From assembly GCF_037023755.1 (NCBI RefSeq), contig NZ_CP146100.1, positions 6,107,501 to 6,171,500 of the forward strand: a stretch of 64,000 nt of DNA, given 5' to 3'. Under the pieces are notes generated by a model that saw only the letters and a program-made list of their open reading frames with translations, was not told the DNA's origin and did not search any database. The translations under genes and the position numbers were made by a program. Origin of the DNA: Saccharopolyspora sp. SCSIO 74807 (GTDB lineage Bacteria > Actinomycetota > Actinomycetes > Mycobacteriales > Pseudonocardiaceae). This document shows, one piece after another, positions 28,212 through 44,060 of the stretch; positions within the stretch are counted from its first letter, which is position 1; each line of letters opens with the position of its first letter.

Positions 28212-29189
28212 TCAGCGAGCCGCGGCGTTCGCGACCGCGCGCACCGACAGCGCCCGCTGGGCGGCCTCCCAATTGGCTGGATCGCCGCGCCAGGACTCGA
28301 GCGCGGGGCCGACCAGCGCCCGGCCGAACGAGTAGGTGAGTTCCCAGGGCAACGAGCCGCAGTTCTGCATGGCCCCGAGGTGCCTGGTCGCGGTCTCCGG
28401 GGTCTGCCCGCCGGACAGGAAGGCGATGCCGGGCACCGTCGGAGGCACCGTCTCGCGCAGGGTCTCCACCGTGGTCCGCGCGGCCTCGTCCACGCCGGGC
28501 TGCTCCGGGCAGTCCTTGCCGGCGACCACCATGTTCGGCTTGAGGACCATGCCGTCGAAGTCGACCTGCATGAGGGCGAGCTCGTCGAACAGCGACCGCA
28601 GCACCACCCGGGTCACCTGCTGGCACCGGGCCAGCGAGTGGGAGCCGTCCATCAGCACCTCGGGTTCCACGATCGGCACCAGGCCGCCTTCCTGGCAGAG
28701 CCCCGCGTACCGCGCCAGCGCGTGCACGTTGGCGCGAACCGCGCGTTCCGAAGGGAGGCCGTCCCCGATGTCGAACACCGCGCGCCACTTGGCGAAGGTC
28801 GCCCCGAGGCCCACGTACTCCGCGACCCGTTCGCGCAGCCCGTCGAGTCCTTCGGTGACCTTCTCCCCCGCGGCCCCCGCCAACGGCTTGGCGCCGGTGT
28901 CGACCTTGATGCCCGGGTGGATCCCCATGGCCGTCAGCGCCTCGGGGAAAGTGCGCTCGTCGGACAGCCGCTGGCGCAGCGTGTCGTCGGCGAGGATGAC
29001 CCCGCTGATCGAATCGACCAGATCGGGAGTGGTGACGATCAATTCGCGGTAGACCCGCCGTTTCTCGTCCGCGGCCTCCACCCCGACGCTTTTCAGCCGG
29101 GCGGACATGGTTCCGATGCTCTCGTCGGCGGCGAGCACTCCGCGCCGATTGGAAACCAGGGTGTTCGCTACTTCGGCCAAGCTGGACAT
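28212..29189 (-). CDS. fda: Fructose-bisphosphate aldolase, class I
   Basis: A 325-residue class I aldolase: GVLAADESIGTM near the start, KWRAVFDIGDG, VEPEVLMDGSH, the Schiff-base lysine in VLKPNMV, and the phosphate-binding AFLSGGQTPE. It cleaves fructose 1,6-bisphosphate to triose phosphates in the cytoplasm. With hxlA, hxlB and pfk this completes the cleavage arm of the RuMP cycle. A shared promoter block lies 255 bp upstream at 29444-29472, with a hairpin in the long leader. Confidence 0.92.
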   Translation of the reverse strand: MSSLAEVANTLVSNRRGVLAADESIGTMSARLKSVGVEAADEKRRVYRELIVTTPDLVDSISGVILADDTLRQRLSDERTFPEALTAMGIHPGIKVDTGAKPLAGAAGEKVTEGLDGLRERVAEYVGLGATFAKWRAVFDIGDGLPSERAVRANVHALARYAGLCQEGGLVPIVEPEVLMDGSHSLARCQQVTRVVLRSLFDELALMQVDFDGMVLKPNMVVAGKDCPEQPGVDEAARTTVETLRETVPPTVPGIAFLSGGQTPETATRHLGAMQNCGSLPWELTYSFGRALVGPALESWRGDPANWEAAQRALSVRAVANAAAR

Positions 29190-29425: not shown

Positions 29426-29443
29426 GACGCATACCGAGTAGCC

Positions 29444-29472
29444 AGGCTGCACGGATCTGTACGTCCGGTCAA
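29444..29472 (-). promoter_or_regulatory. C1 promoter block, copy 1 (fda)
   Basis: On the minus strand: TTGACC, a 17-bp spacer containing ACGTACAGATCCGTG, then CAGCCT. The same arrangement occurs before hxlB (42456-42484) and hxlA (43179-43207). Inside the spacer CGTACA and CGTGCA repeat with a 10-bp period, a layout used by LytTR-type binding proteins. Confidence 0.75.
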
Positions 29473-29697
29473 CGCATTCCGCACGAAGCGGTGCTCCGGC
29501 GCCACGAACGGTCCGGAAAACGCGCCAAGTGGATTCGCGGAGCACTCGCGCGAACCCGCAGCGACGTCGTCCCCGGAATTCGCCGACCGACACCTCGGAA
29601 CGGCTCCGGAACCCATTGCACGGCCCCAGCGGTACGGGTATTCTGAATCGGCTCGACCAAAAGTTACCGGCTTTTGAATCCGATCAGGGGTGCATCT

Positions 29698-30291
29698 GTG
29701 TCACCGATGGAGCGCACCGAAACCAAGCGGGAACTCATCATCGAGGAAGCCTCCCGGATGATGTACGAGCGTGGCACCGGAGTGGGGGTGGATACGCTCG
29801 TCAGCGAGATCGGCGTCGCGAAGATGACGCTCTACAAGCACTTCCCGACCAAGACGGACCTCATCGTCGCGTGCTTGGAGCACATGGACGACTGCCACCG
29901 GGCGCGGCTGAGCGGGGACATCGACTGGACCTCGTCGCCCAGGCAGCGACTGCTGTCGGTCTTCGACGCCCTCCGCGTCTGGTTCGCCACGCCGTCGTTC
30001 CGCGGGTGCGCCTTCGTCAACGCGACCGTCGAGCTCGCCGACACCGCTCCGCAGGTGCGCAACGCGGTGCGCGAGCACAAGAACGCGATGCGCGCGTGGG
30101 TGGTCAAACTCGTCGAGGAGTGCGGGCTGCCGGACAAGCAGTTCGTCGCGAGCCAGCTCGCCCAGCTCATGGAGGGGGCGACCACGACGGCACTGCTCGA
30201 GCGGGATCCCGCGGCGGCCGACATCGCGCAGGCCACGGCCCTGCAGGTGCTGGACAAGGCCAAGGAGGCGAAGTCCGCCCGTTCGCTGTGA
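29698..30291 (+). CDS. TetR-family transcriptional regulator
   Basis: A 197-residue TetR protein with HTH TLVSEIGVAKMTLYKHFPTKTDLI (residues ~26-49 in parts) and a TetR C-terminal domain (GCAFVNATVELADTAPQVRNAVREHKNAM). The GTG at 29698 has AGGGG 8 bp upstream; an ATG three codons later is an alternative. It is divergent from fda and convergent with the LytTR gene, so it may control C1 genes, though no obvious palindrome was seen between it and fda. Confidence 0.8.
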   Translation: MSPMERTETKRELIIEEASRMMYERGTGVGVDTLVSEIGVAKMTLYKHFPTKTDLIVACLEHMDDCHRARLSGDIDWTSSPRQRLLSVFDALRVWFATPSFRGCAFVNATVELADTAPQVRNAVREHKNAMRAWVVKLVEECGLPDKQFVASQLAQLMEGATTTALLERDPAAADIAQATALQVLDKAKEAKSARSL

Positions 30292-30313
30292 GAGCATCCC
30301 GACGCACCAGCGT

Positions 30314-30655
30314 TCAGAGCCCCAGCGCTTCGGTGACGAACTTCGCCCGACGACGGGAAACCGGGACGACCCCGCTGTAGTTCTCGACGGTGAGCTCGAG
30401 CTCCCCGCCGTCCTTGCGCTCCACTTCGCGCACCCGGCTGAGGTTCACCAGGTAGCTCCGGTGCACTCGCACGAAGCCGCATTCCGCGTACTTGTCATCG
30501 ATGTTGTCGATCCCGTCGATCGCGCACCGGAAGCGTCCGAGATCGGTCCGGAGCCAGACGGCCCTGCCGATGGCCTCGGCCACGATCACCTCGGCGATGT
30601 CGAACAGGACCTGCCGCTCCCCTTTGATCCCGACAACACGTCGCGTCGACCCCAT
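30314..30655 (-). CDS. Single-domain LytTR DNA-binding protein
   Basis: A 113-residue protein that is almost entirely a LytTR domain (CGFVRVHRSYLVNLSRVREVER, GVVPVSRRRAKFVTEALGL). There is no receiver or GAF domain. A strong GGGAGG site lies 4-5 bases before the ATG at 30655. It lies directly downstream of the PQQ dehydrogenase gene on the same strand and shares the LytTR type found in the three long regulators, so it may compete with or assist them at the same sites. Confidence 0.82.
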   Translation of the reverse strand: MGSTRRVVGIKGERQVLFDIAEVIVAEAIGRAVWLRTDLGRFRCAIDGIDNIDDKYAECGFVRVHRSYLVNLSRVREVERKDGGELELTVENYSGVVPVSRRRAKFVTEALGL

Positions 30656-30880
30656 GGGTCCTCCCATAGCACCGTCTCGGAAGCCGTTTCGCCTCGCCTG
30701 GCTCCGTCCAGGTAGTACTGGTCTGTCCGGCAGCGGCTTTCCCGCGCTGCCCGCCAGGTTCCGGCGGTCGGCCGGTCTCCACCGCGCTGCCGCCTGCTCC
30801 GTCGCCGGCTCCGCCGAGTGCGCGGCCCCGGATTCCGGCGCCGTCCGCGGGCCCGCGAGGTAGGAGTCATGACCAGGACG

Positions 30881-30926
30881 TCCGGGCGGGCGGTGCGGGC
30901 GCCGTACGCCCGCACCCCCGCCCGGA
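30881..30926 (-). terminator. Hairpin downstream of PQQ dehydrogenase gene
   Basis: TCCGGGCGGG ... TGCGGGCG pairs with CGCCCGCA ... CGCCCGGA around loop CCGTA, giving a long GC-rich stem about 60 bases after the dehydrogenase stop. No T-run follows. The remaining bases of the gap up to the LytTR gene show nothing else. Confidence 0.55.
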
Positions 30927-30986
30927 GGTTCCCCTTGCTGCACGTCGCGCCGTCGCCGACGGTCGTGGAGGCCGCTGCTGGGGCGA

Positions 30987-32672
30987 TCAGTCCGGCAGGG
31001 CGAACACGATCAGCGCGCTGCCGTGGCCCGCGCCGAGCATTCCCGGAATGATGCCCTCGAGCCAGCCACCCCAACCGACCGGCACGGCGACGTACTGCTT
31101 GCCGTCGACCATGTAGGTCGTCGCGCTGCCGTGGTGGCCGCTGCCGCACTGGAACTTCCACAGCTCCTCGCCGGTGCGAGCGTCCAACGCGAGGAACTCG
31201 CCCGTCGGGGTGCCCGCGAAGACCAGGTCGCCCGCGGTGGCCAGCACCGAGGCCGCCATCGGGTGGGAGTTGCGCCAACGCCACTGCTCGACGCCGTAGG
31301 AGTCGAAGGCGCTGACCGAACCGGCCATGTTGTCGATGTCCACCTGGACCGCGGCGCCCCAGTAGGGCATGCCTTCCTTGAACTCACGACGGCGGCGGGT
31401 CGCGGTGGCGCCCACGTCGGCGACCGGCACGTAGAACATCTCGGTACGCGGGCTGAACGCGGCGTGCGTCCACTCCTTGGCACCGGCGGGCCCCGGGTAG
31501 AAGTGGACGGGTTCGCCCTCCTTGTCCGGGTACTTCCGCGGGGTCACCTTGCCGTCGCGGGTGATGGTGCCCCAGTCGATCCGGTCGACGTACGGGGTGA
31601 CGTGCTGCAGCTCGCCGTTGGTGCGGTCCAGCACGAAGAAGTAGCCGTTCTTGTCGAAGTGGCCCAGCAGCTTCTTCCCGTCCCGCTCGAACAGGGTCAT
31701 CTCCATGGTGGAGTCGTAGTCCCAGAGGTCGTGCGGGGTGAACTGGTAGTGCCACTTGATCTCGCCGGTGTCGACGTCGACCGCGACGACGCTGTCGCTG
31801 TAGAGGTTGTCGCCCTCGCGGACCGCACCGTCGAAGTCGGGAGCCGGGTTGCCGGTGCCCGCGTAGTACAGGTTGGTCTCCGGGTCGTAGGTACCGGTGA
31901 CCCAGTGGTTCGCACCGCCGCGGGTCCACGCCTCGCCGTCGTCCGGCCAGGTCTCGGAGCCCTTCTCGCCCGGCTTCGGGATGGTGTAGCAGCGCCAGCG
32001 CTGCTGACCGGTCTCCAGGTCCCAGCAGTCGATGTGGCCGCGCACGCCGAACTCGCCGCCCGCGCTACCGGTGATCACCGTGTCCTTGACGACCAGCGGG
32101 GCGAGCGAAGCGCTCTCGCCGGCGCGCACGTCGCCGATCGTCTTCTCCCAGACCTTGTTGCCGTTGGTGGCGTCCAGCGCCAGCAGGTGGGCGTTCGGGG
32201 TCACGAAGTAGACCTTGCCGTTGGCGATCGCGCAGCCGCGGTTGACGTTGCCGCAGCACAGCGACACGTCGAAGGGGACCGCGTGCTTGTAGCGCCAGAG
32301 CTGCTCGCCGGTCTTGGCGTCCAGCGCCCAGAACCAGCCGTCCCAGCCGGTGACGTACATGACGCCGTCCACGACCATCGGGGAGGTCTCGAAGGCGTAG
32401 GTCGACGCACCCGCGATCTGCCCGGAGGTGCCCGCTTGGAAGATCCAGGCCGGACCGATGCGCTTCACGTTCTCGGTGTTGATCTGGTCCAGCAGGCTGT
32501 ACCGCTTGCCGTCGTAATCACCGTAGTAGGTGATCCAGTTGTGCGATTCCGAACGCGCGTTCTTGATGCGCTCGTAATCGATGTTGTCGGTCACCGCGGG
32601 GGCGGTTCCGGAAATGGCGCTCAGCGCCCCGTGGTCGATCGCCTCACCGGCGTCAACGTATTCGACTGTCAT
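30987..32672 (-). CDS. PQQ-dependent alcohol dehydrogenase, methanol/ethanol family, lanthanide-type site
   Basis: A 561-residue eight-bladed propeller quinoprotein: vicinal disulfide Cys139-Cys140 (SLCCGNVNRG), metal ligands near E207 (GGEFG) and N275 (GTGNPAPDF), catalytic D318 in LWDYDSTMEM. Asp320, two residues after the catalytic Asp, is the mark of lanthanide-dependent enzymes (XoxF/ExaF types). Trp repeats such as LDAKTGEQLWRY recur. It probably oxidises methanol or another primary alcohol to aldehyde. No signal peptide is visible although relatives are exported; the ATG at 32672 has AAAGGGA upstream and only 14 bases separate it from the previous gene. Confidence 0.88.
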   Translation of the reverse strand: MTVEYVDAGEAIDHGALSAISGTAPAVTDNIDYERIKNARSESHNWITYYGDYDGKRYSLLDQINTENVKRIGPAWIFQAGTSGQIAGASTYAFETSPMVVDGVMYVTGWDGWFWALDAKTGEQLWRYKHAVPFDVSLCCGNVNRGCAIANGKVYFVTPNAHLLALDATNGNKVWEKTIGDVRAGESASLAPLVVKDTVITGSAGGEFGVRGHIDCWDLETGQQRWRCYTIPKPGEKGSETWPDDGEAWTRGGANHWVTGTYDPETNLYYAGTGNPAPDFDGAVREGDNLYSDSVVAVDVDTGEIKWHYQFTPHDLWDYDSTMEMTLFERDGKKLLGHFDKNGYFFVLDRTNGELQHVTPYVDRIDWGTITRDGKVTPRKYPDKEGEPVHFYPGPAGAKEWTHAAFSPRTEMFYVPVADVGATATRRRREFKEGMPYWGAAVQVDIDNMAGSVSAFDSYGVEQWRWRNSHPMAASVLATAGDLVFAGTPTGEFLALDARTGEELWKFQCGSGHHGSATTYMVDGKQYVAVPVGWGGWLEGIIPGMLGAGHGSALIVFALPD

Positions 32673-32686
32673 GAGTTCGTCCCTTT

Positions 32687-33148
32687 CTACCGGCGCGGCT
32701 GGTCGGGGCGGTCGAGACGGGCTTCCGGCGGCACTTCGCCGAGCACGACGATGGCGGCGGTCAAACCGCGGCCCTCGTCGTTCCCGCCGGGCGAGCTGTA
32801 CCAGTAGTAGCCGGGGCCATCGAGGTTGAGCCTGGCCTTGCCCTTGGAGTGGTTCAGCAGCCAGAGGAACTTCTTGTCACCGTTGCTCGGCAGCAGGCAG
32901 GCGTGCGTGTTCCGGTCGTCGTTGATGACGGTCAGCTCGACGTCACCACCGTGCGGCAGAACCAGGATCGCCGGGTCCCAGGCGATCTGGTCCTCCCGGA
33001 TCCGGACGGTGGCCTCCATCGTGCCGTCCGCGCGCTCGGTGGCCCGCTCGATCCCGCCGGTTCCCAGCACACGACCGATCGCTGCGCTGTTCTGTGCGTC
33101 CAAGCCGAGCTCGTTCAGCAGGTCGTCGCGTTCCTGCGTCGTCGTCAT
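32687..33148 (-). CDS. Cupredoxin-like PQQ-associated protein
   Basis: A 153-residue protein that precedes the PQQ dehydrogenase in one operon. The region ILVLPHGGDVELTVINDDRN, then THACLLPSNGDKKFLW and GPGYYWYSSPGGNDEG, has the beta-sandwich pattern of cupredoxins, but the classic Cys-His-Met copper set is incomplete. It resembles the actinobacterial PQQ-associated family next to such dehydrogenases (MSMEG_3727 type). It may be the electron acceptor or a chaperone. A near-perfect AGGAGGTGA site precedes the ATG; it also lacks a signal peptide. Confidence 0.75.
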   Translation of the reverse strand: MTTTQERDDLLNELGLDAQNSAAIGRVLGTGGIERATERADGTMEATVRIREDQIAWDPAILVLPHGGDVELTVINDDRNTHACLLPSNGDKKFLWLLNHSKGKARLNLDGPGYYWYSSPGGNDEGRGLTAAIVVLGEVPPEARLDRPDQPRR

Positions 33149-33805
33149 TGGACTTCACCTCCTCATTTCGAATCCATGTCCGGACCGCTCATACCCGCCT
33201 GGGGTCGCTCGCAACTGGGTGCGCCTCACGTGCAGGCCCATCGTTCCCCTTTGATCGATGCCTCCGCAGACGATTCCGTTCGACCGGGAAAGGTCCACTC
33301 GGCGTGCGCGCACACCGAATCAACAGCATCTCCCGGGTCGTCGCACAGCACGGGACGAAATCATCGGAAACCGCCGGATGAAGTGCGTGCTGAAATTACG
33401 TTCCCTCCCACCGGGAACACGCGGACGTGCCGAGCGGAGTTCGCGGAGTGGGCTCCGGTACCGAGTTCCGCTCTTTTAACCTGTGGTACTCGACAATTTT
33501 ACGGTGGCGGGCACCACACCGGAAGGGCCGACCGCTGACCCGGTCCACCGCACCGCTCGCACGGAATGAGCTACCGCCCAACCGGGCTCGTGATCCCGGC
33601 TCCCACCGAGTGGACCCGCCTGCCGGGTGCCGCGGCGAGGCCGCCGCCACCGGAATCCCTTGCGCTGCCTGAACGTTCCAGCTGCGACATCGGTGTCAGA
33701 ACCCGGACCGAGCAGGCCGCGGAGGCCCGCGAGCACCGCTGCGGCGCTCCCGGCAGCTGGGCGAAGCGCCGCTTTTCCGGGGCTCCGTTCACCCGGCGTG
33801 CGAAA
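33149..33805. other. Gap upstream of PQQ dehydrogenase operon
   Basis: No gene is supported. It must contain the promoter of the cupredoxin-like/PQQ dehydrogenase operon. I did not find the 28-bp block shared by fda, hxlB and hxlA, so this operon is probably under a different promoter. Confidence 0.4.
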
Positions 33806-33836
33806 GCCCGCGCGGACCGGCGTGGTCCGCGCGGGC
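33806..33836 (-). terminator. katG terminator hairpin
   Basis: GCCCGCGCGGACC and GGTCCGCGCGGGC form a perfect 13-bp stem with a 5-base loop about 50 bases past the katG stop. No clear T-run, as often in actinomycetes. Confidence 0.75.
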
Positions 33837-33886
33837 TCGGTGGGAATCGCCGCGCGTTTCACCGCAGCACGTGCTCGGGCGAATCG

Positions 33887-36115
33887 TCAGGTCAGGTCGA
33901 AGCGGTCGAGGCTCATCACCTTGTGCCACGCGGCCGCGAAGTCCTGCAGGAACTTCTCCTGCTCGGCGGCGTAGACCTCGGCGATCGCGCGCAGTTCGGA
34001 GTGCGAGCCGAAGACCAGGTCCACTCGGCTGGCGGTCCACCGCGGCGCGCCGGTGGACCGATCGCGGCCCTGAAAGGTTCCGGGCAGACCTCGTTTCGGC
34101 ATGTCCGGCACCCATTCGGTGTCCATGTCGAGGAGGTTGGTGAAGAAGTCGTTGGTGAGCAGGCCCGGCCGGTCGGTGAGCACGCCGAGCCGGGAATGCC
34201 GGTGGTTGGTGTCCAGCACGCGCAGCCCGCCGACGAGCGCGGTCATCTCCGGGGCGGAGAGGGTGAGCAGGTTGGCCCGGTCGACGAGCTGGTACTCCTG
34301 CGGGAGCCGATTCGCCTCGCCGTAGTAGTTGCGGAAGCCGTCGGCGCTCGGTTCGAGCGCGGCGAAGGCCGCCGCGTCGGTCCACTCCTGGCCCGCGTCG
34401 GTGCGTCCCGGGGCGAACGGCACCTGGACGTCGTGGCCCGCCAATGCGGCGGCGTCCTCCACCGCGGCACAACCGGCGAGCACGATCAGGTCGGCCAGCG
34501 AGATCTGCTCGTCGTGCTCGGCGTTGAACAGGTCGCGGATCCGCTCGAGGGTGGTCAGCACCTTCGCCAGCACTTCCGGGTCGTTGGCCGCCCAATCCCG
34601 TTGCGGCGCCAACCGGATGCGGGCGCCGTTCGCGCCGCCGCGCTTGTCGCTGTCCCGATAGGTCGATGCCGAGGCCCACGCGACGAACACCAGCTCCCGG
34701 ACCGAAAGGCCCGAGGCCAGCACGCGGTTTTTCAGCTCGGCGAGGCTCTCGGCCGTGACCAGCTGGTGCTCGACGGCGGGGACCGGGTCCTGCCAGAGCA
34801 TCCGCTGCTCGGGAACCAGCGGGCCGAGGTAGCGCTGGATCGGGCCCATGTCGATGTGGGTGAGCTTGAACCATGCGCGCCCGAAGGCGTCCGCGAGCTG
34901 CTCCGGGTGCTCCGCGAAGCGCCGCGCGATGGGCGCGTAGACCGGGTCGTCCTGCAGCGCGAGATCGGTGGTGAGCATAGTCGGGCCGCGGCGGGTGTCC
35001 GGGTCGTGCGGGTCGGGAACGGTGCCCTCGCCCGCGTCGTCCCGGGGAATCCACTGCCACAGCCCGGCGGGGCTGAGCTCCACGTCCCACTTGTACGCGA
35101 ACAGGGTCTCCAGGAACGAGTTGTCCCACCGGGTCGGTGTGGGGGTCCAGATGCCCTCCAAGCCGCTGGAGATCGCGTCCGACCCCTTGCCCGTGCCGTG
35201 GCGGTTGCGCCAGCCCAGGCCCATGTCCTCCAACGGCGCGGCCTCGGGCTCGTCGCCGAGGCTGCTCATGATGTCGGCGGCACCGTGGGTCTTGCCGAAG
35301 GTGTGCCCGCCTGCGATCAGCGCGACGGTCTCCTCGTCGTCCATCCCCATCCGCGCGAACGTGGTGCGGATGTCGCGCGCCGAGGCGACGGGGTCGGGCA
35401 GCGTCGCGGGGCCCTGCGGGTCGACGTAGATCAGGCCCATCTCGTCGGCGGCCAGCGGTTCTTCCAGGTCGCGCACGCCGGTGTGCCGCTCATCGCCCAG
35501 CCAGGTCCGCTCGGGCCCCCAGTAGACGTCGGCGTCGGATTCCCAGGTGTCCCGGCGTCCGCCTGCGAAGCCGAGCGTGCGCAAGCCCATGGTCTCCAGC
35601 GCTCGGTTGCCCGCGAAGACCATCAGGTCCGCCCAGGAGATGCTGCGGCCGTACTTCTGCTTGACCGGCCACAGCAGCCGGCGGGCCTTGTCCAGGTTGC
35701 GGTTGTCCGGCCAGCTGTTGGTCGGGGCGAAGCGCTGCATGCCCGACGAGGCCCCACCGCGTCCGTCGCCGATGCGGTAGGTACCGGCGCAATGCCAAGC
35801 CATCCGCAGCACCAGCGGCCCGTAGTGCCCGAAGTCGGCAGGCCACCATTCCTGCGAGGTCGTCAGCACCTCGTCGATGTCGCGGGCCAGCGCGTCGAGG
35901 TCCAGCTCGGCGAATTCCGCCGCGTAGTCGAAATCCCTTCCCAGTGGATTCCGCGACGGGTGGTGCTTGGCGAGGATTCGGAGGTTGAGGCGGTCCGGCC
36001 ACCAGTCGCAGTTGTCCCCGCCGGCGGCCGGGTGGTTGCGCACGCGCTCGGCGGTCCGGCGAACGCTCTGGTCGTAGTTGCGGCTGATCGCCACGGCATC
36101 GGGATTTTCCGGCAT
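33887..36115 (-). CDS. katG: Catalase-peroxidase
   Basis: A 742-residue KatG of full length. The distal pocket is in [12 protein letters not shown] (Arg, Trp and His), the Tyr and Met of the Met-Tyr-Trp adduct are in [10 protein letters not shown] and [10 protein letters not shown], and the proximal heme His is in [13 protein letters not shown]. The C-terminal duplicated domain is present. It destroys hydrogen peroxide in the cytoplasm. A GAGAGGAG site precedes the ATG, and a GAF-LytTR regulator gene ends only 30 bases upstream on the same strand, so the two are likely co-transcribed. Confidence 0.95.
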
Positions 36116-36145
36116 GGAAGCTCCTCTCAGCGGCGCGTGACGCCC

Positions 36146-37555
36146 TCAGATGCCCAGCGCCCGGCGCACCGCTGGGGCGTTCCGCCGGGAGACCGGCACC
36201 ATCGTCCGCGCCTCGTCGTCCATCACCAGGGCAAGTTCGCCTTTGAAGCCGCGTTCGACCTCGCGGATGCGGCCGATGTTGACCACGTACTGCCGGTGCA
36301 CCCGGAGAGCGGACCCGCCCAGCTCGGTCTCGAGCTTGTCCAGGGCCGGTGAAGCGGCTCGCAGTCGGCCTTGGTCGGTGGTCAGCCACACGTCGTTGCC
36401 CTCGGATTCGGCGAAGGAGATCTCCGGGTGGCGCAGCAGCACCAACCGGCTGTCCCGCATCGCCACGATCCGGTGCCCCTGCGCCTGGTCGGAGGCGGCG
36501 GCGCCGCCTTCCGCCCGCGGGAGCTGCTCGGCGTCGGACACCCCGAGTTCGACGAGGGTGCCGACGAGGTGTCCGGACAGGAACACCGGCCGGATGCTGA
36601 TCGGCGTGGGTTCGTCGGCGAGGTGGGTGAAGATCTGGGTGGAACCGACCCAGTCCCGCGTGTGCGCGGCTTGTTCGGCCGCGTAGCGGGCCACCCGGAC
36701 CAGCTCGGGCAGACCCGGGTTCCAGCGCGCCGCCGGGTCGGTCGCGGGGGTCGAACCCGGCACGCCTAACAGGACGCTCGCGCGATCGTCGGCGATCACC
36801 ACCTGCCCGGCCGGGTCCAACGCCGCCAACGACACACCCGCCCGCGCACGAACGTGGTTGCGCGCGTGGTCGTACGCCGCGATCAGCTCGGCACCGGCGT
36901 CCCGGGCGCGCCGCCGCAGCATGAACTGCGTCCTGCTGGCGGCGTTGCTCAGCCAGGCGCCCACGGACTCCGGAAGCTCGCTGCGCCAGCAGGAGATGTT
37001 CACCGCCGCGACCGGCTCGCTGGTCACCACGTCGCGCACCGCCACGCCCGCGCAGTTCCAGTCGTGGAAGGCCTGGCACCAGTGCTCCGCGCCCCGGACC
37101 ACCACCGGCGCATGCGACTCCAGCGCGGTGCCCATGCCATTGGTACCGGTGGAACCCTCCGCCCAGGAGAACCACGGCGCCAGGTTCGCCTCGGCGGCGT
37201 AGTTGCGGGTGTCCTTGTTGCCCCACTCGGCCAGTACCCGGCCGGTGGCGTCGGTGACGGTCACGACCCCGCCGAGATCGCTCACCTCGTTGACGACCGA
37301 GGCCGCGCGGAACCCGAGCTCGGCGAAGACCACATCGTGCTCGAGCGTGTGGTCCACGTCCGTGATGGCCACCGGAGCTTCGGCCAGATACGGATTGACG
37401 CGGTACTGGTCGCGGCACCGCTGCCAGGACAGCGCCACCTCCGGCCGCACACCGCGGACGTCGTCCGCACCCCGCACGAAGCGCTCCCACGCCCCGTAAA
37501 CCGTCGACTCGCCCCCGCCGCCCGTCTTGGCGCGGAGCCGGTGCACATCTGCCAT
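36146..37555 (-). CDS. GAF-LytTR transcriptional regulator (paralog 3, katG operon)
   Basis: A 469-residue protein starting MADVHRLRAK, with GAF region (AEGSTGTNGMGTALE, EHWCQAFHDWNCAGVAVRDV), PAS-like middle (AGVSLAALDPAGQVVIADD) and LytTR end (ALRVHRQYVVNIGRIREVER). It is the close sister of paralog 2; DNA around 36740-36800 is identical to 24430-24500 over tens of bases, including a TTA codon (36767-36769). It sits 30 bp before katG. A C1 or peroxide-linked signal is likely, but the ligand is not evident. Confidence 0.87.
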   Translation of the reverse strand: MADVHRLRAKTGGGGESTVYGAWERFVRGADDVRGVRPEVALSWQRCRDQYRVNPYLAEAPVAITDVDHTLEHDVVFAELGFRAASVVNEVSDLGGVVTVTDATGRVLAEWGNKDTRNYAAEANLAPWFSWAEGSTGTNGMGTALESHAPVVVRGAEHWCQAFHDWNCAGVAVRDVVTSEPVAAVNISCWRSELPESVGAWLSNAASRTQFMLRRRARDAGAELIAAYDHARNHVRARAGVSLAALDPAGQVVIADDRASVLLGVPGSTPATDPAARWNPGLPELVRVARYAAEQAAHTRDWVGSTQIFTHLADEPTPISIRPVFLSGHLVGTLVELGVSDAEQLPRAEGGAAASDQAQGHRIVAMRDSRLVLLRHPEISFAESEGNDVWLTTDQGRLRAASPALDKLETELGGSALRVHRQYVVNIGRIREVERGFKGELALVMDDEARTMVPVSRRNAPAVRRALGI

Positions 37556-37959
37556 CCGAGACCGCCTTTGGTCCGTCACCGCCCCGGAACGCGCGAGGCC
37601 GGTGCGACCGCACATCACGTCGCGTTCCGAGCCGGTCCGCGTCACTACTCCGATTTCGCACGCCTGTCGGAAACGCCGAGAACTCCGGGACCCGGTCGAT
37701 GCGGCCCGAGTGCTCGCACGACTCATGACCGCGCATCGGGCGATGAACCGGACGCAGCCGTGCGGCTTTTCCCGCGCTCCGGCTTCCCGACGTGGAACGG
37801 AAAATTACGTGGTGGGAGATTCGGCCGACAAGGCGAGCGCGACGACCGCTGACCAACGGCGCACGAGCGGCGGCCTCGCGACAACCAGCGGTGGTCATGC
37901 CCCTCCTTCCCCGCGATCTCCGTCCGGCTCGCCCGCACCGGATCATTCGCCGGAACGGC
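37556..37959. other. Gap between exchanger gene and paralog 3
   Basis: About 400 bases without a supported gene. The segment nearest 37555 shares CCAAAGGCGGTCT with the leader of paralog 2. No terminator with a T-run was seen after the exchanger gene. Confidence 0.4.
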
Positions 37960-39069
37960 CTAGTCGGTGTCGAGTGGAACCCCGCCGAAAGCCGTCAGGC
38001 TGATGACGAAGTAGGCGGCGTAGAGCGCTAGCAGCACCCCTCCGTGCCAGCGGCGCAGCCGCCCGGTGGCCAGGAAGATCGCCGACAGGACCGTCATGCC
38101 GAGCAGGACCGGCAGGTGCCAGGACAGCACGTTCTCGCCGATCGTTATGTCCCCGCCGAGCAGCAGGACGATCCCGAGCTTGCCGGTCAGCGAGAACACG
38201 ACGCTGCCGATGACGTTGGCGACCCCGATCTCCGGCGCGCCCCTGCGGGCGGGCTCCACGGTGAGGAAGACGTCCTCGAGCGACAGCGCCAGCGTCGCGA
38301 TCGTGACGCCGAAGACGGTGCCGTCGATGTCCAAGGTCTCCAGCAGTCCTTCGGTGCCCTGTCCGGCGAGCGCGGCGCCTCCGATCAAGCCGGCCAGCGC
38401 CAGCACCGCGAACAGCAGGCTGATCGGCAGGGACCGCTGCCTCGCTGCCAAGAAGCCCTGGTCGATCCGCAGGTCGCCGGGCAGCTCGAAGCCACCGCCG
38501 CCCGGCTCCGTCGCGGGCGGGCGAGCTGGCGACCGCTCACCGGCCGCGCCGGATTCCGAGGTGGTCGCGACGCTGACCGCACCGGCCTTCTCGACCTGCT
38601 CGTAGAACTCGGCGTTGCGGAACACCGGCCGCCGCGCTGCGTACTCGCGGTAGCCGATCCAGCCCACGAACACCGCGAACAGCACCACCAGCACGACGCC
38701 CATGGACTGCGTCAACGCGCCGGTCGAGGCGAACAGCGACATCGCCGCAGGACCGGCCGCGAACAGCACGAGGTAGTCCTTGGGGACGTCCACCGGGCAC
38801 GGGGCGATGAGCGCCGCCAGTGCGAGCACGATTCCCATGATCGCGATCGTGGTGCCGATGACGGTGCCGAGCGCCGCGTGCTGCAGTTCCTCGACATTGA
38901 GCACGATGCCGTAGGCGAGGTCGTCGAACTCGATCCCGGTGAACAGCACGGCGACCAGGAACAGCGAGACGACCCACCTGCTGGACACGCCGACCAGGTT
39001 GCCGATCAGCTTCTCCGCGCAGTACACGAGCAGCGCGATCCCCAGCGCGAACTCCAGCGCGGCCATCAT
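37960..39069 (-). CDS. Sodium/calcium exchanger family membrane protein (CaCA type)
   Basis: A 369-residue membrane protein in two inverted halves of about five segments each, joined by a cytoplasmic linker (~165-210). The alpha-repeat-like regions are FTGIEFDDLAYGIV/GTVIGTTIAIMG in the first half and ALSLEDVFLTVEP/NVIGSVVFSLTGKLG in the second. This fits the cation/Ca2+ exchanger superfamily. Its ATG overlaps the pfk stop by 4 bases, so it is translationally coupled to a glycolytic gene, an unusual partner. Confidence 0.75.
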   Translation of the reverse strand: MMAALEFALGIALLVYCAEKLIGNLVGVSSRWVVSLFLVAVLFTGIEFDDLAYGIVLNVEELQHAALGTVIGTTIAIMGIVLALAALIAPCPVDVPKDYLVLFAAGPAAMSLFASTGALTQSMGVVLVVLFAVFVGWIGYREYAARRPVFRNAEFYEQVEKAGAVSVATTSESGAAGERSPARPPATEPGGGGFELPGDLRIDQGFLAARQRSLPISLLFAVLALAGLIGGAALAGQGTEGLLETLDIDGTVFGVTIATLALSLEDVFLTVEPARRGAPEIGVANVIGSVVFSLTGKLGIVLLLGGDITIGENVLSWHLPVLLGMTVLSAIFLATGRLRRWHGGVLLALYAAYFVISLTAFGGVPLDTD

Positions 39070-40541
39070 CGGAAGCTCCGCACCGGGCCGGCGCCGGGGA
39101 GTTCGGCATCGCGCGGCTCGCCGGCGCCGCCGTCCCGGTCGCGGGACGACCGGCAGCTGCGCCGGTAGTCCTGCGGGCCCGCCTCCGCGTCCGGACGGCC
39201 GTGCGAGCCGTGCCTCGGAACCAGGTGACCGGTCGCCTCAAGCACCGACATCCACAGATCTCCATCGGGATCGACCTCGTTGCGATGGCTGATGATCAGC
39301 GGCATCGGCACGTGCACGAAGCGGCGCCGCCAGCGCACCACGGCGGTCTCGGTGCGCCCGGCCATGGCCGCGTGCACCGCGGCGTGGGCCAGGCGCAGGC
39401 AGTAGACGCTGTCGTAGGCGTTGGCGGTCACGCTTCGCACGGCGTAGCTCGGGTCGATGTAGCGCACCGTGGGCGACAGGCCCGCCCCGATCAGGTGCGC
39501 CGTGATGGTCTCCCGCAGCAGCGCACCGATGTCGCCCAGCCTGGCGTTGCCGGAGGGATCGGTGGTGTCGGCGAGCAGACCGCGCTCCTGCAGCAGCTCC
39601 TGGCCCGCTCCCTCGGCCACTACGACGACCACGAAGCCCTTCTCGCGCACGTGCCGCTCGACCCGGGCCAACAGGCCGTCCGGCCCTTCGAGCGCGAACG
39701 GCACTTCGGGGATGAGCACGACGTCGGCGGCGTTGCGGGCCAGCGAGGCGTAGCAGGCGATGAAACCGGAATGCCTGCCCATCAGCTTCACGATGCCGAT
39801 GCCGTCGGGACTCGCCGCGGCCTCGATGGCGACCGAGTCGATGAAGTTGGCCGCCTGCGCGAACGCGCTCTGGAAGCCGAAGGACTGGTCGGTGTAGGGC
39901 AGATCGTTGTCGATCGTCTTGGGGACCCCGATGACCGCGATGTCCAGACCGCGCCGGCGGATCGCCGCGGCCAGGTTCGTCGCGGCGCGCATCCCCCCGT
40001 CGCCACCGATGACGAACAGCGCGTCCACCCCGCGCAGGACCAGGCTGTCGACCATTTCCTCGGGCTCCTGCCCGCCGCGCGAGCTGCCCAGGATGGTGCC
40101 GCCGGAGTTGTGTATCTCGCGGACCCGATCCGGTGTCAGCTCCTCGGTGTCGTCGCGGTTCGCGGCCGTCAGCCCGCGGAGCCCGTTGCGGAAGCCGAGG
40201 ATCCGCCGCACGCCGTAGTGCACGGTGAGTTCCTGGACGATGCCCCGGATGACGTCGTTGAGCCCCGGGCACAGCCCGCCGCAGGTCACCACGCCCGCCG
40301 TGACGCGGGAGGAGTCGAAGTAGATCTTCCGGCGGGGTCCGGCCGCCTCGAAGCTCGGCAGCTCCTCCGGCGGGAGGTCGTGCTCGGCGAGCATCGAAAC
40401 GGTGTCCTCGAGCAGCACCCGGTCGCCCTCCGCCACGTAGTGCGGCGAAGTCCGCTTGGCCGCGAGCATTTCGCAGAACGGTGAGTCGTAGCGGCACTCA
40501 CCAAGGTGGCGAACGCGCAGGTTGTCCAAGTGCATTTTCAC
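39066..40541 (-). CDS. pfkA: 6-phosphofructokinase
   Basis: A ~491-residue phosphofructokinase of the long type: GGLCPGLNDVIRG, VIGGDGGMRAA, GVPKTIDNDLPYTD, KLMGRHSGFIA. The Gly after GGD favours ATP, while Lys in PKTIDND is the residue seen in PPi enzymes and in plant-like ATP enzymes, so phosphate donor choice is not settled. It phosphorylates fructose 6-phosphate and drives the RuMP cleavage arm with fda. Start chosen at GTG 40541 (VKMHLDN), 5 bases after GGAG. The C-terminal ~60 residues are low-complexity and Arg-rich. Confidence 0.87.
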   Translation of the reverse strand: MKMHLDNLRVRHLGECRYDSPFCEMLAAKRTSPHYVAEGDRVLLEDTVSMLAEHDLPPEELPSFEAAGPRRKIYFDSSRVTAGVVTCGGLCPGLNDVIRGIVQELTVHYGVRRILGFRNGLRGLTAANRDDTEELTPDRVREIHNSGGTILGSSRGGQEPEEMVDSLVLRGVDALFVIGGDGGMRAATNLAAAIRRRGLDIAVIGVPKTIDNDLPYTDQSFGFQSAFAQAANFIDSVAIEAAASPDGIGIVKLMGRHSGFIACYASLARNAADVVLIPEVPFALEGPDGLLARVERHVREKGFVVVVVAEGAGQELLQERGLLADTTDPSGNARLGDIGALLRETITAHLIGAGLSPTVRYIDPSYAVRSVTANAYDSVYCLRLAHAAVHAAMAGRTETAVVRWRRRFVHVPMPLIISHRNEVDPDGDLWMSVLEATGHLVPRHGSHGRPDAEAGPQDYRRSCRSSRDRDGGAGEPRDAELPGAGPVRSFR

Positions 40542-40610
40542 CGAATCTCCTAACCGACGACGGCCGTACGACGAGGCCGGCAGATCGATCACTGGGGCGG
40601 GCACGTGCCG

Positions 40611-41594
40611 TCAAGACGTCGGCCGGGGCATGGCGCCGAAGGTGGTGTGCACGACGCGGCGCACCTCGCCGCTGGAGATGAGCAGGGAATCCGCGAGCAC
40701 CGTGCCCCCGGATTCCCGTGGCTCGTTCAGCAGCGCTCCTCCGGTTACGCCGGTGGCCGCGAACAGCGCTTCGCCGCCGACGAGCTCGTCGCGGGTGTAG
40801 ATGCGGGCGAGGTCCATGCCCGCCGCGCGGAGGGCATCGGCCTCCGCTTCGCGCTGCGGGGCCAGGCGGCCGAGCATGTCGCCGCCCAGGGCGCGCACCG
40901 CCGCCGCGGTCATCACGCCCTCCGGCGTGCCCCCGACGCCGAGGAGCAGGTCGGCGGAGCCGGACGGGAGCAGCACCTCGAGGCTGCCGCCGACGTCGCC
41001 TTCCGCCGGGGCGTGCACGGCAGCGCCCGCCTCCAGCACCCGCTTGATCAGCTCCTGGTGGCGGGGCTTGTCCATGATGACCACGCGCAGCTCGCCGACG
41101 TGCTTGCCGAGCGCCCCGGCGACCTTGCGCAGGGTGCGCTCCGGGGTGTCGGCGAGATCGACGACGCCGTTGGCCTGCGGCGGCACCACGATCTTGTCCA
41201 TGTAGAAGCCGGGCCCCGGCGAGAACATGGTCCCGGATTCGGCGAACGCGATGGTGGCCATCGAGCCAGGCAGGTTCTTCGCGCAGAACGACGTGCCCTC
41301 GAGCGGGTCCACGGCGATGTCGAAGTCCGGACCCGCACCGCTGCCCACGGTCTCGCCGTTGAACAGCATCGGGGCCTCGTCCTTCTCGCCTTCCCCGATG
41401 ACCACCGCGCCCCGGCCCGGAGCATCGGCCAGCACTTGGCGCATGGCCTCGGTGGCCGCCGCGTCGGCAGCCTTCTTGTCGTTGCGACCGGCCCAGGCGT
41501 GGCTGGCCACCGCCGCGCTGCGGGTGGCGGTCAGGGCCACCGACTCCAGCGTGCTGATGCCGGTGCGCGGTGCGGTCTCGTGCTGGCGCTGCAT
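40611..41594 (-). CDS. glpX: Fructose-1,6-bisphosphatase, class II
   Basis: A 327-residue GlpX: GRNDKKAADAAATEAMR, VIGEGEKDEAPMLFNGE, the metal/substrate site DIAVDPLEGTSF, VGGTPEGVMTAAAVR, TRDELVGGEALFAATGVTGG. It dephosphorylates fructose 1,6-bisphosphate and balances pfk in the regenerative phase. AAGGAG lies 6 bases before the ATG. It lies between hxlB and pfk on the same strand, in one apparent operon. Confidence 0.93.
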   Translation of the reverse strand: MQRQHETAPRTGISTLESVALTATRSAAVASHAWAGRNDKKAADAAATEAMRQVLADAPGRGAVVIGEGEKDEAPMLFNGETVGSGAGPDFDIAVDPLEGTSFCAKNLPGSMATIAFAESGTMFSPGPGFYMDKIVVPPQANGVVDLADTPERTLRKVAGALGKHVGELRVVIMDKPRHQELIKRVLEAGAAVHAPAEGDVGGSLEVLLPSGSADLLLGVGGTPEGVMTAAAVRALGGDMLGRLAPQREAEADALRAAGMDLARIYTRDELVGGEALFAATGVTGGALLNEPRESGGTVLADSLLISSGEVRRVVHTTFGAMPRPTS

Positions 41595-41718
41595 CGCGGA
41601 CTCCTTGCTCGTCGTTGCCTCGGTACGGAGGAGGGACCGGCGAAAACCGGCGCGCCGGGCGATCGGACATCGCCCGCGCGCCACGCGGAGCGAATGCGCT
41701 GCCGGCGGAATCCGCCGG

Positions 41719-42324
41719 TCACTCGAGATTCGCGTGCAGCCGCCACAGCTCGCGGGCCTGGGTGCCGCTGGAGCGCCACAGGGCGTGGAACAGCGCGTCG
41801 GTCAGCAGCAGCACCGACTGCTCGAACAGGCTGCCCGCGTACTGGGCGGAGGTCGTCCCGTCGAAGTCCTTCTTGTCGGCCGCCGGGATGACCAGCGTCT
41901 CGGTCGCGGTCTGGGCCAGCGCCGAGCCGGGATCGGTCGTCAGCGCCACCACGTTCGCGCCCTGCTCGCGCGCGGTCTCGGCCGCCCGCACCACCCGCGC
42001 CGTCGAGCCCGAGCCGGAGGCGGCCACCAGGACGTCACCGGAGCCGATCGCCCGCGCGGTGGTCTCACCCACGACGTGGGTGTCCAGCCCGAGGTGCATG
42101 AAGCGCATCGCGGCCATCTGCAACGCCAGGCCGCTGCGCCCGGTGCCGACGGTGAACACCGCGCGCGCCGTGAGCAGCAGTGCACCGGCACGTGCCCACG
42201 CCGCGGGCTGGACGCCCCTGCGGATCTGGTCCACCTCGGTGCTGATGGCCATGGTCGCGTAATTGAAATGCGGCGGATTCAGCTTTTCGCCGATATTCTC
42301 GTGAGCGGTGTCCGCACCCGTCAT
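41719..42324 (-). CDS. hxlB: 6-phospho-3-hexuloisomerase
   Basis: A ~201-residue SIS-domain isomerase: FTVGTGRSGLALQMAAMRFMHLG, VGETTARAIGSGDVLVAASGSGST. It converts hexulose 6-phosphate to fructose 6-phosphate, the second step of formaldehyde fixation. The ATG at 42324 is preceded by TGGAG at 8 bases. The C1 promoter block lies about 130 bp upstream. It heads the leftward unit hxlB-glpX-pfk-exchanger. Confidence 0.92.
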   Translation of the reverse strand: MTGADTAHENIGEKLNPPHFNYATMAISTEVDQIRRGVQPAAWARAGALLLTARAVFTVGTGRSGLALQMAAMRFMHLGLDTHVVGETTARAIGSGDVLVAASGSGSTARVVRAAETAREQGANVVALTTDPGSALAQTATETLVIPAADKKDFDGTTSAQYAGSLFEQSVLLLTDALFHALWRSSGTQARELWRLHANLE

Positions 42325-42455
42325 TGAGCACACTCCACTGGTCGGTCGGATGTATTCGTCGGTTCAGTGCGCGAGCGCCGAGCAGCGGCGCCGGGCTGCA
42401 CTTTCCTGGACCCCGCCGGGTTCCGGATCGCGACCCGGACGAATCCCGCTACGAG

Positions 42456-42484
42456 AGACTGCACGGATCTGTACGTCTGGTCAA
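42456..42484 (-). promoter_or_regulatory. C1 promoter block, copy 2 (hxlB)
   Basis: On the minus strand TTGACC, 17-bp spacer AGACGTACAGATCCGTG, CAGTCT. The spacer is identical to the copy before hxlA and differs at one base from the copy before fda. It points at hxlB. Confidence 0.8.
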
Positions 42485-42577
42485 CGCGGCCGACACGAAG
42501 AGAAGGCAGACTCGCACGAACGGTTTCGGGGACCGATCAAACGGGAACCGCAGGAATCCCGCGCCCGTTGCGGCGAC

Positions 42578-42609
42578 ACCGCGGGCACCGGGAATCCGGT
42601 GCCCGCGGT
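42578..42609 (-). terminator. Terminator-like hairpin after the second pqqA
   Basis: ACCGCGGGCACCGG and CCGGTGCCCGCGGT form a perfect 14-bp stem with loop GAAT, 39 bases past the stop of the 31-residue pqqA-like gene and before the hxlB promoter. No T-run follows. Confidence 0.65.
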
Positions 42610-42647
42610 CGCCGCGTTACCGCCCGGCCGTCGACCGGCGGGCGGGC

Positions 42648-42743
42648 TCAGTCCTCGGCCTGGGCGACGTACATGGTCACCTCGGCCGCGCACCCGATCT
42701 CGACGAACCGGGGCGTTTCCCACTGCGGGGCAACGGGCTCCAT
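42648..42743 (-). CDS. Second PqqA-like precursor peptide
   Basis: A 31-residue peptide with the PqqA layout: Trp8, Pro11, then the Glu-x3-Tyr crosslink pair E21-VTM-Y25. The Trp-Glu (13) and Pro-Glu (10) distances equal those of the pqqA in the biosynthetic operon. The ribosome site AAAGGAGGTG is a near-perfect anti-16S match at good spacing. It lies alone between hxlB and hxlA, about 6.5 kb from pqqABCDE, with its own terminator. It is probably a substrate for PqqD/PqqE; extra PqqA genes are known to raise PQQ supply in some methylotrophs. Confidence 0.82.
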   Translation of the reverse strand: MEPVAPQWETPRFVEIGCAAEVTMYVAQAED

Positions 42744-43178
42744 GGCTACACCTCCTTTCGGAAGATCTGCGGGCAAGGCCCTGACCAGCCCCAGGGGTTT
42801 CCGGAACGATCGGTGCCCCGGCGGCGATGCGAACCACCGGTACCGAGGCCGAGAGCCGCTGCGCCTCCCGGCGCGATGCCGACCGGCTGTTCCCGAAAAG
42901 AATGGGCCGCTTCGCGAACAGCGGTGACCGCCGGGTCACGCGGCTGGGCGGGGCCGAAATCCCGAACTCGCCGATCGCGTTTCGATCGGGTCGATATTCG
43001 ACTGCTCCACGAGGGCCGGTCCCGCCTTCCGGGAACACCCGGCCGATCAGGAGCGCCAGTCATCGTACGTCGGCGCGCATCCGGATCGCAACACCATTCT
43101 GCGGCGTTCCCCGAAATACCATTTGGAGGTTCGTCCGCGCCGTCCGTGCTGCCGCGGCTGCCATTCGTTCGGCCGCGG
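42744..43178. other. Gap between second pqqA and the hxlA promoter
   Basis: About 435 bases with no supported gene. It must hold the promoter of the pqqA-like gene; I found no full copy of the C1 promoter block facing it, only a short GACGTAC similarity near 43067. Confidence 0.4.
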
Positions 43179-43207
43179 TTGACTAGACGTACAGATCCGT
43201 GCAGTGT
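43179..43207 (+). promoter_or_regulatory. C1 promoter block, copy 3 (hxlA)
   Basis: TTGACT, 17-bp spacer AGACGTACAGATCCGTG, CAGTGT, on the plus strand and pointing at hxlA about 227 bp downstream. The orientation relative to the gene is the same in all three copies. Confidence 0.8.
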
Positions 43208-43433
43208 CACAGGCCGTTGCCCGTTCGCACTCCGACGCGGAATCCGCGGAGAACCGGAACGAGCAGCCGGAAGGATTCGAGGAACGGCGGCACGACGTCG
43301 TGATCCACCCACCATTCTGCCCGGAATCGGGAAAGCCGGATGCGGCGGACCGCATCGCGCGCCGCGTGGTGGATCCCGGCGCAGGACCACCCGCGCCCGA
43401 AACCGCAACGCCACCACTGACGAGGAGAGCACC

Positions 43434-44060
43434 GTGAAGCTGCAGGTAGCACTGGACGTCGCCACCCTCGGCGACGCGCTTTCGCTGGCGCACCAGGCCG
43501 AGGACTACGTCGACGTCCTCGAGCTGGGCACCCCGCTGATCAAGGCCGAAGGCCTGTCCGCGATCACGGCGATCAAGGCCGCGCACCCGAACAAGCTCGT
43601 TTTCGCCGACATGAAGACCGCCGACGCCGGCGAGCTGGAGGCCGACCTCGCGTTCTCCGCGGGCGCGGACCTGGTGACCGTCATGGGCGCGGCCGACGAC
43701 GACACCGTGCGCGGGGCCGTCGCCGCCGGTGAGAAGCACGGCAAGGACGTGGTCGCCGACATGATCACCATCGTTGCGGACCGGGTCGCCCGGATCCGCG
43801 AGGTCTCGAAGCTGGGCGTGTCCTTCGTCGAGATCCACGCGGGTCTCGACGAGCAGGCCAAACCCGGCTACACGATCGAGACGCTGCTCGCGGACGGCCG
43901 CCAGGCCGGCGTCCCGTTCTCGATCGCCGGTGGCGTCACCGCCGAGACCATCGCCGCAGTGCAGGACGCCGGGGCGACCGTCGCGGTGGCCGGCGGTGCG
44001 ATCCGCAGCGCGGCGGACCCGGCCGCAGCCGCCAAGGCCCTCAAGAGCCGGATCCGCTGA
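43434..44060 (+). CDS. hxlA: 3-hexulose-6-phosphate synthase
   Basis: A 208-residue member of the OMP-decarboxylase-like family: LQVALDVATLGDAL, ELGTPLIKAEGL, the catalytic FADMKTADAGELEADLAFSAGAD segment, VEIHAGLDEQ, and the phosphate-binding SIAGGVTAETI/VAGGAI. It condenses formaldehyde with ribulose 5-phosphate, the entry of the RuMP cycle. GTG start with GAGGAG 7 bases upstream. First gene of the rightward unit hxlA-rpe-orf-tkt-rpiB. Confidence 0.94.
   Translation: MKLQVALDVATLGDALSLAHQAEDYVDVLELGTPLIKAEGLSAITAIKAAHPNKLVFADMKTADAGELEADLAFSAGADLVTVMGAADDDTVRGAVAAGEKHGKDVVADMITIVADRVARIREVSKLGVSFVEIHAGLDEQAKPGYTIETLLADGRQAGVPFSIAGGVTAETIAAVQDAGATVAVAGGAIRSAADPAAAAKALKSRIR

Follow-up and report, generated by a model that had tools for sequence, protein, structure and literature searches.

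The LytTR family of regulators is known mainly from the control of bacteriocins, competence and virulence. Its members are described, in the accessible text of one source, as binding imperfect direct repeats of about 9 bp, lying about 12 bp apart (PMC4064291), and the available part of another reports for LytTR regulatory systems a 9-12-9 arrangement, located mostly 10 bp upstream of the -35 box (PMC6193735). For the genes of the ribulose monophosphate (RuMP) pathway, a review, in its accessible portion, names HxlR for Bacillus and no regulator for actinomycetes (PMC8879981), while the MnoSR system of Mycobacterium smegmatis is said, in the part of its description that was available, to regulate methylotrophic metabolism (PMC11303327). 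Three related promoter regions are reported here, which precede the RuMP genes fda, hxlB and hxlA of Saccharopolyspora sp. SCSIO 74807 in what looks like a methylotrophy cluster. They lie within a stretch of 64,000 nucleotides of contig NZ_CP146100.1 (positions 6,107,501 to 6,171,500), hereafter the window, to which all coordinates refer; related genomes are indicated by G and a number. The sequence evidence makes it probable that the RuMP operons are activated by LytTR proteins through upstream repeats, and that a separate element, placed between -35 and -10, is read by a second factor.

A preliminary description of this DNA had pointed to three 29-bp blocks sharing TTGAC[C/T], a 17-bp spacer and a -10-like hexamer, interpreted as a promoter common to the RuMP operons, with a spacer conserved beyond the needs of a core promoter. 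The blocks were recovered at the same positions and strands (Table 1), and their boxes read as claimed, the spacer being identical at hxlB and hxlA and departing by one base at fda. The distance of the site from the start codon is 254 bp for fda, 122 bp for hxlB and 226 bp for hxlA, close to the long leaders of about 130-255 bp that had been proposed. No match to the 29-bp blocks was found in 100 shuffles of the window. In the entire genome, a single contig of 6,688,468 bases, the full 26-bp motif TTGACYRGACGTACAGATCCGTGCAG has exactly three matches at up to 3 mismatches, all located at RuMP operons, against none for the reversed control, and the 16-bp block on its own has three exact matches. 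The motif is not found at random genes, in agreement with a shared RuMP promoter, and the three sites would represent the core promoters of the operons fda, hxlB-glpX-pfk and hxlA-rpe-tkt-rpiB.

Conservation extends further upstream, a feature missed by the preliminary description. Each of the three sites is preceded by three 9-bp repeats, approximating CCGYTCGTS and separated by 12-bp gaps, with the last repeat ending 9 bp before the -35 box. Fifteen sites from five genomes were aligned by their -35 box, omitting as near-copies the three sites of G001, which belongs to the same species as the window. In this alignment the repeats stand at -60, -39 and -18 from TTGAC, with a period of exactly 21 bp; the letters that never vary are CC..TTG (first repeat), CCG....T (second) and C..TTCGT (third). 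Over the 15 sites the linkers drift (mean identity 42-55%), in contrast to the repeats (77-83%) and the block (96%); no site has lost the repeats, the 9-bp distance or the -35. The distance between the repeats and TTGNNN is 9 bp in the register chosen here and 10 bp when the box is moved one base upstream; in the shifted register, which is the frame of the ACC-type boxes in the accessible text of PMC6193735, the second repeat reads ACCGTTCGT at most fda and hxlB sites.

A matrix built on the second and third repeats was used to scan for further box-bearing promoters. It detected the same layout before the LytTR1, LytTR2 and LytTR4 genes, a mycothiol-dependent dehydrogenase gene and a YaaH-family gene. 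At four of these five promoters a TTG is located exactly 9 bp past the repeats (TTG frequency 0.0067); at the fifth, that of LytTR2, TGGCAC is found at 9 bp, counting a fourth repeat placed by eye. Direct 9-bp repeats with 12-bp gaps, within the 11-13 bp that characterize LytTR sites, are present at the 15 aligned RuMP sites and at these five window promoters. The other LytTR-type promoters of the cluster contain the upstream repeats and no block, and the two elements are therefore separable. In a count performed on 12 clusters, after masking 15 training regions, 9-mers at no more than one mismatch from CCGYTCGT form 58 pairs at 21 bp, compared with an expectation of 3.06 per distance; the next commonest distances are 42 bp, corresponding to the outer pair of a triple (21 times), 30 bp (17) and 38 bp (13). 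Because the clusters are related, the 58 pairs are not independent events. When repeats, 9-bp distance and TTG are searched for together, the genome contains 8 matches at 0-2 mismatches, 7 of which fall inside the methylotrophy cluster, a result which tests confinement and not discovery, since the window boxes were known before the pattern was set.

Table 1. Genes and promoter elements of the window, with coordinates and strand. Promoter, box and operon assignments are predictions.
Feature	Position	Strand	Remarks
fda -35	29467..29472	-	TTGACC; 9 bp past last repeat
fda spacer block	29450..29465	-	GACGTACAGATCCGTG
fda -10-like	29444..29449	-	CAGCCT; tentative assignment
hxlB -35, spacer, -10-like	42456..42484	-	TTGACC; block at 42462-42477; CAGTCT
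hxlA -35, spacer, -10-like	43179..43207	+	TTGACT; block at 43186-43201; CAGTGT
fda promoter repeats	29482..29532	-	CCACTTGGC / CCGTTCGTG / CGCTTCGTG; 21-bp period
hxlB promoter repeats	42494..42544	-	CCGTTTGAT / CCGTTCGTG / CTCTTCGTG
hxlA promoter repeats	43119..43169	+	CCATTTGGA / CCGTCCGTG / CCATTCGTT
LytTR1 promoter repeats	23194..23244	-	CCGCTCATC / CCGTTCGTC / CCGTTCGTC; then 9 bp, TTGGCA (23179-23184), CATCCT (23156-23161)
LytTR2 promoter repeats	23496..23567	+	four repeats, fourth by eye; 9 bp on, TGGCAC (23577-23582), TTAGCT (23600-23605)
LytTR4 promoter repeats	37841..37891	-	CCGCTGGTT / CCGCTCGTG / GCGGTCGTC; 9 bp, TTGTCG
Repeats upstream of S-(hydroxymethyl)mycothiol dehydrogenase	21471..21521	-	CCGCTCGTC / CCGTTCGTT / CCGGTGGTT; 9 bp, TTGTCC
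YaaH-family gene promoter repeats	48998..49048	-	CCGTTCGGC / CCCTTCGTG / CCACTCGTT; 9 bp, TTGTCC
Weak triple, tentative	33532..33582	+	CCGCTGACC / CCGCTCGCA / CCGCCCAAC; by eye, low confidence
fda, class I fructose-bisphosphate aldolase	28212..29189	-	NF033379
hxlB, 6-phospho-3-hexuloisomerase	41719..42333	-	followed by glpX, pfk on same strand
hxlA, 3-hexulose-6-phosphate synthase	43434..44060	+	followed by rpe, tkt, rpiB on same strand
pqqA	42651-42743	-	31 codons; between hxlB and hxlA; TIGR02107
LytTR1	21523..22959	-	C-terminal LytTR domain, DhaR-like N-terminal stretch
LytTR2	23683..25074	+	start from alignment, predicted
LytTR3	30314..30943	-	short, with LytTR domain
LytTR4	36146..37555	-	predicted start; just upstream of katG

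The block is common to orthologous promoters of related genomes, a further point absent from the preliminary description. A match to TTGACNNGACGTACAGATCCGTG at up to 3 mismatches is present in 15 genomes out of the family's 297. Inspection of the sequence left six as real (G000, G001, G003, G073, G274 and G283), the other nine showing no such promoter layout. Block sites precede fda, hxlB and hxlA in all six genomes, although G274 yields all three only at a looser mismatch limit, and the resulting 18 RuMP sites contain the exact 16-mer in 15 cases, with one-base differences in two and a three-base difference in one. G274 and G283 have one extra base between -35 and the block and none between the repeats and -35: the block shifts and the repeats do not, and the upstream part is therefore separable from it. 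Such a shift would be expected of a sigma-type promoter, whose spacer may be 17 or 18 bp long. When genome_contigs was scanned for exact copies of GACGTACAGATCCGTGCAG, covering 84,980 species in a collection from which records very near the window may be excluded, matches appeared in Saccharopolyspora sp. HNM0986 (at three sites), in S. elongata 7K502 and, once, in Halorubrum, the last about at chance level by our own estimate.

At all ten hxlA and hxlB promoters of five further relatives (G216, G094, G196, G067 and G232), referred to as G216-type, TTGACC is present with a similar -10 at 17 or 18 bp, and no fewer than the last two boxes are retained; the first repeat is weak in several. Their HxlA proteins are 82-88% identical to that of the window, compared with 80% in G274 and G283, and the tree agrees. 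Block-poor relatives are thus nearer than the block-positive G274 and G283, which indicates that the block was kept or lost apart from the boxes. Two tree features are suggestive only: the block-positive genomes do not form one clade for HxlA (27 of 30 loci), and the block-degenerate group has a longer branch in the LytTR1 tree. Presence or absence of LytTR1 was discarded as an explanation of the block, as the protein occurs in block-positive and block-degenerate genomes alike. Nineteen additional block matches at 2-3 mismatches were found in seven genomes (reversed control: 7). The idea that a fourth block site might mark the gene of its own regulator was also rejected: none of the 12 matches inspected has TTGAC at the right distance, and most are located in long open frames. 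On these sequence comparisons, the block is best described as a separate element, nearly invariant only at the RuMP promoters of some genomes, with a presumed trans-acting reader of its own.

The distribution of the LytTR genes was compared with that of the boxes. A protein of LytTR2/4 type is present in all 11 box-bearing clusters fetched (the alignment of LytTR proteins contains 11 of the 12 intended rows). LytTR1 is matched in 15 of 20 genomes searched, the match in G151 being partial and without the LytTR part; the 14 genomes having a full LytTR1 all have hxlA, and boxes somewhere near it, and no box-bearing genome among those tested is without the protein. In the congeners G002, G004 and G005 neither hxlA nor a LytTR1-like protein was found. 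A survey of 32 genomes returned 30 hxlA loci, 19 of which feature a strong box pair. RuMP promoters bear boxes in the window's species, G003, G073, G274, G283 and the five G216-type genomes. All five hxlA loci of genus g43 are devoid of a strong pair; LytTR1 was sought in three of its genomes, with no match in G047 or G079 and just the partial one in G151, and no triple was found in 30 kb around the genes of G047. The order supplied 298 genomes, of which 17, from three families, encode a LytTR4-type protein. Of 12 such loci, one is the window's own; at 10 of the other 11, katG or part of a pyrroloquinoline quinone (PQQ) dehydrogenase gene is contained within the flank, and the remaining one, L165, has neither.

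The DhaR model matches the N-terminal parts of LytTR1, LytTR2 and LytTR4 weakly (E from about 1e-10 to 3e-9, far below the cut-off), from which we infer that these three proteins are one-component sensors. The Pfam matches of the four LytTR proteins of the window comprise no receiver domain, weak GAF matches in two and the DhaR-like stretches in three. For LytTR4, AlphaFold gave a model of too low quality for use (mean pLDDT 40). A profile search against solved structures gave a single chain with E <0.1, 3d6w_A, matching over the C-terminal part.

Because the layout corresponds to that published for LytTR promoters, and the core of the AlgR site of Pseudomonas aeruginosa, CCGTTCGTC in the accessible text of PMC4064291, constitutes two of the three boxes before LytTR1, activation by LytTR proteins is taken as the best reading. 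At least one LytTR activator, encoded in the same cluster, would most likely switch the RuMP operons on by binding the three direct repeats, one per 21 bp, i.e. two helical turns, on one face of the DNA. As the array ends 9 bp before -35, the activator might assist RNA polymerase where the -35/-10 pair is weak. Positive feedback is suggested by the boxes at three LytTR genes, and the DhaR-like N-terminus may point to one-component sensing of a one-carbon (C1) signal, for which methanol and formaldehyde are candidates. For the block between -35 and -10, the best reading is that a second trans-acting factor would bind there, e.g. an activator that contacts the spacer or a repressor that keeps polymerase out; this might provide the RuMP genes with an extra gate that other C1 genes would not have. 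In its widest form, the proposal is a two-key promoter: LytTR one-component sensors would run the methanol programme of some actinomycetes through three-box arrays, and a second factor would read the 16-bp block. This form is put forward tentatively, its chances being somewhat less than even.

Several observations weigh against activation through the repeats combined with a second factor. A strong box pair is missing at 11 of the 30 hxlA loci. Neither hxlA nor hxlB is preceded by a triple above the cut in G046, G146 or G139, where the strong box near hxlA points away, being located before pqqB in the first two and before pqq genes in G139; boxes at the RuMP promoters are thus shown for the genomes named above and not for every methylotroph of the family. 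Elsewhere in the order, only 2 of the 11 LytTR4-type loci have a triple above the cut. The G216-type relatives retain boxes and -35/-10 with only traces of the block, and the second factor is deduced solely from conservation. At up to 3 mismatches the full layout has 10 genomic matches and the reversed control 7, the control matches being given as a total over this mismatch range. The two-box pattern, at no more than one mismatch in the same genome, is matched 74 times, against 133 for the reversed control; box pairs were accordingly rejected as a genome-wide predictor, and the claim is based on the full layout instead of single boxes.

Four other explanations were considered. LytTR binding had previously been assigned to the CGTACA/CGTGCA repeats of the spacer, at 10-bp spacing. 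LytTR proteins stand as likely activators, through the canonical upstream repeats; the site within the spacer is not supported. Four LytTR genes are indeed present in the window, and the reverse strand of the spacer, CTGTACGTC, is by eye close to one LytTR box, but the spacer repeats are 10 and not 21 bp apart, the canonical boxes, 9-bp repeats with 12-bp gaps, stand upstream of -35, LytTR-type promoters exist that have no block, and at hxlA of G274 this part of the spacer is no longer conserved (GGCGCGCAG) and the upstream boxes persist. Binding inside the spacer is thus regarded as very improbable. Another candidate is the TetR regulator encoded at 29674-30291, divergent from fda, which could repress through the imperfect spacer dyad ACGTACAGATCCGT: its gene adjoins the fda site, a dyad between -35 and -10 occupies the typical place of an operator, and orthologues 89-100% identical are found in G001, G003 and G073. 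However, no close orthologue is present in the block-positive G274 and G283, where the best matches are only 38-40% identical and located outside the cluster; the protein was discarded as reader of the block, and repression by it is considered improbable.

The block might also have no reader of its own, either forming part of polymerase recognition, by the main or an alternative sigma factor, or deriving from recent copying among the three promoters. In favour are the wider conservation of CGTGCAG, beside -10, relative to the rest of the block, and the near identity of the fda and hxlB promoters of G283 over about 100 bp. Nevertheless, other cluster promoters with similar -35/-10 boxes are without the block, and in the window an identity of 31-41% in the linkers beside the repeats is accompanied by 100% in the block, so that plain copying is no explanation. 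A block without its own reader is on the whole rather unlikely. Finally, chance or a general actinobacterial promoter motif was considered, TTGAC and CAG-type hexamers being ordinary elements of housekeeping promoters; yet just three matches in 6.69 Mb, all at RuMP operons, and the recurrence at the same three operons in other genomes leave this explanation a practically negligible probability.

The gene content of the window is that of a methylotrophy cluster, with a route which looks like methanol to formaldehyde and onward. Besides hxlA, hxlB, rpe, tkt, rpiB, glpX, pfk and fda, it encodes a dehydrogenase of the PQQ-dependent methanol/ethanol family, whose substrate is predicted from the family, katG, pqqA, pqqB, pqqC, pqqE, S-(hydroxymethyl)mycothiol dehydrogenase and the four LytTR-domain proteins. 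In LytTR regulatory systems the regulator shares an operon with an inhibitory membrane protein. Here katG stands downstream of LytTR4, and formaldehyde dehydrogenase or pqqB downstream of LytTR1; a P-type ATPase gene converges on LytTR2, and inspection of neighbours located a Na/Ca-exchanger gene upstream of LytTR4, on the same strand. The repeats found here before the mycothiol-dependent enzyme have a counterpart upstream of pqqB in G283, G274 and G046. The weak triple of Table 1 precedes the PQQ-dehydrogenase operon but is oppositely oriented, and one box of its counterpart in G274 and G283 is a perfect CCGTTCGTG.

Some genomes contain two hxlA copies, with equal or near-equal scores, inverted and flanking part of the cluster, at distances of about 20-23 kb (G046, G049, G081, G146) or 6-8 kb (G139, G154, G211, G251), as if kept alike by gene conversion. 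Signs of rearrangement were noted on contig C2 of G073 (126578-128263, 144103 and 146555-147564; L032-L033), where an N-terminal LytTR stretch runs into the C-terminal part of a PQQ dehydrogenase and the LytTR4 promoter is duplicated together with part of the Na/Ca exchanger gene. In G274 (C273, 20329-20511; L038), a 61-codon piece of PQQ dehydrogenase C-terminus is 93% identical to the window protein and stands beside a full-length gene with 82% identity; the piece may hint at transfer of the cluster.

Stem-loops are located early in the leaders of fda (29380-29443, minus strand; TCCTGCGGT-GAA-ACCGCAGGA) and hxlA (43208-43290, plus strand), and similar CTGYGG..GAAA..CCGCAG hairpins occur in the leaders of relatives. 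The window fda leader has a folding z of -6.6 relative to mononucleotide shuffles, and strong stem-loops are present in some single leaders. Leader structure was nevertheless rejected as an explanation, the consensus folds being weak at fda and hxlB, despite these stem-loops, and better at hxlA. Past the hairpin, several leaders (window 29360-29410, minus strand; G283, G274, G073, G003) read approximately GGAAGGG..GCATGGARGAA, which resembles a ribosome site followed by the beginning of a small open reading frame in the leader.

The analysis yields candidate regulators together with defined candidate binding sites, in a regulon whose small size permits testing in one strain; the spacer element, in addition, can serve as bait for its putative reader. 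If confirmed, LytTR control would extend to central carbon metabolism, and, were the two-key arrangement true, formaldehyde fixation would be gated separately from formaldehyde oxidation.

Among known systems, DhaR joins a sensor to a sigma-54-type activator. DhaR-type sensor activators are similar to LytTR1, LytTR2 and LytTR4 in the N-terminal stretches, with a match far below the model cut-off, and differ in that here the sensor stretch is joined to a LytTR domain. Response regulators of the AlgR/AgrA type have an N-terminal receiver domain, a part not seen by Pfam in the LytTR proteins of the window. The control of hxlAB by HxlR in Bacillus shares the target genes and, likely, a formaldehyde or C1 signal, but HxlR is a MarR-family (DUF24) protein, according to the accessible text of PMC8879981; among the 40 open reading frames of the window scanned, none has an HxlR-type Pfam match, the rest of the genome not having been searched for HxlR. 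MnoSR acts in an actinobacterium, like the present host, and is a two-component system in the available part of its description (PMC11303327). No earlier report of LytTR control of methylotrophy was found among titles and abstract beginnings, in a search outside which most subscription literature lies; LytTR promoters are already known, and the new features, as far as the searches went, are their control of methylotrophy, an array of three boxes and an additional element in the spacer. The closest likeness is with HdrR/BrsR and other LytTR regulatory systems, which, in the accessible text of PMC6193735, have 9-bp repeats, 12-bp gaps, about 10 bp to -35 and the same layout at regulator genes. 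Unlike those promoters, the ones described here contain three or four repeats instead of two and, at the RuMP operons, an additional invariant spacer block, and their putative regulators combine a DhaR-like sensor stretch with targets in C1 metabolism.

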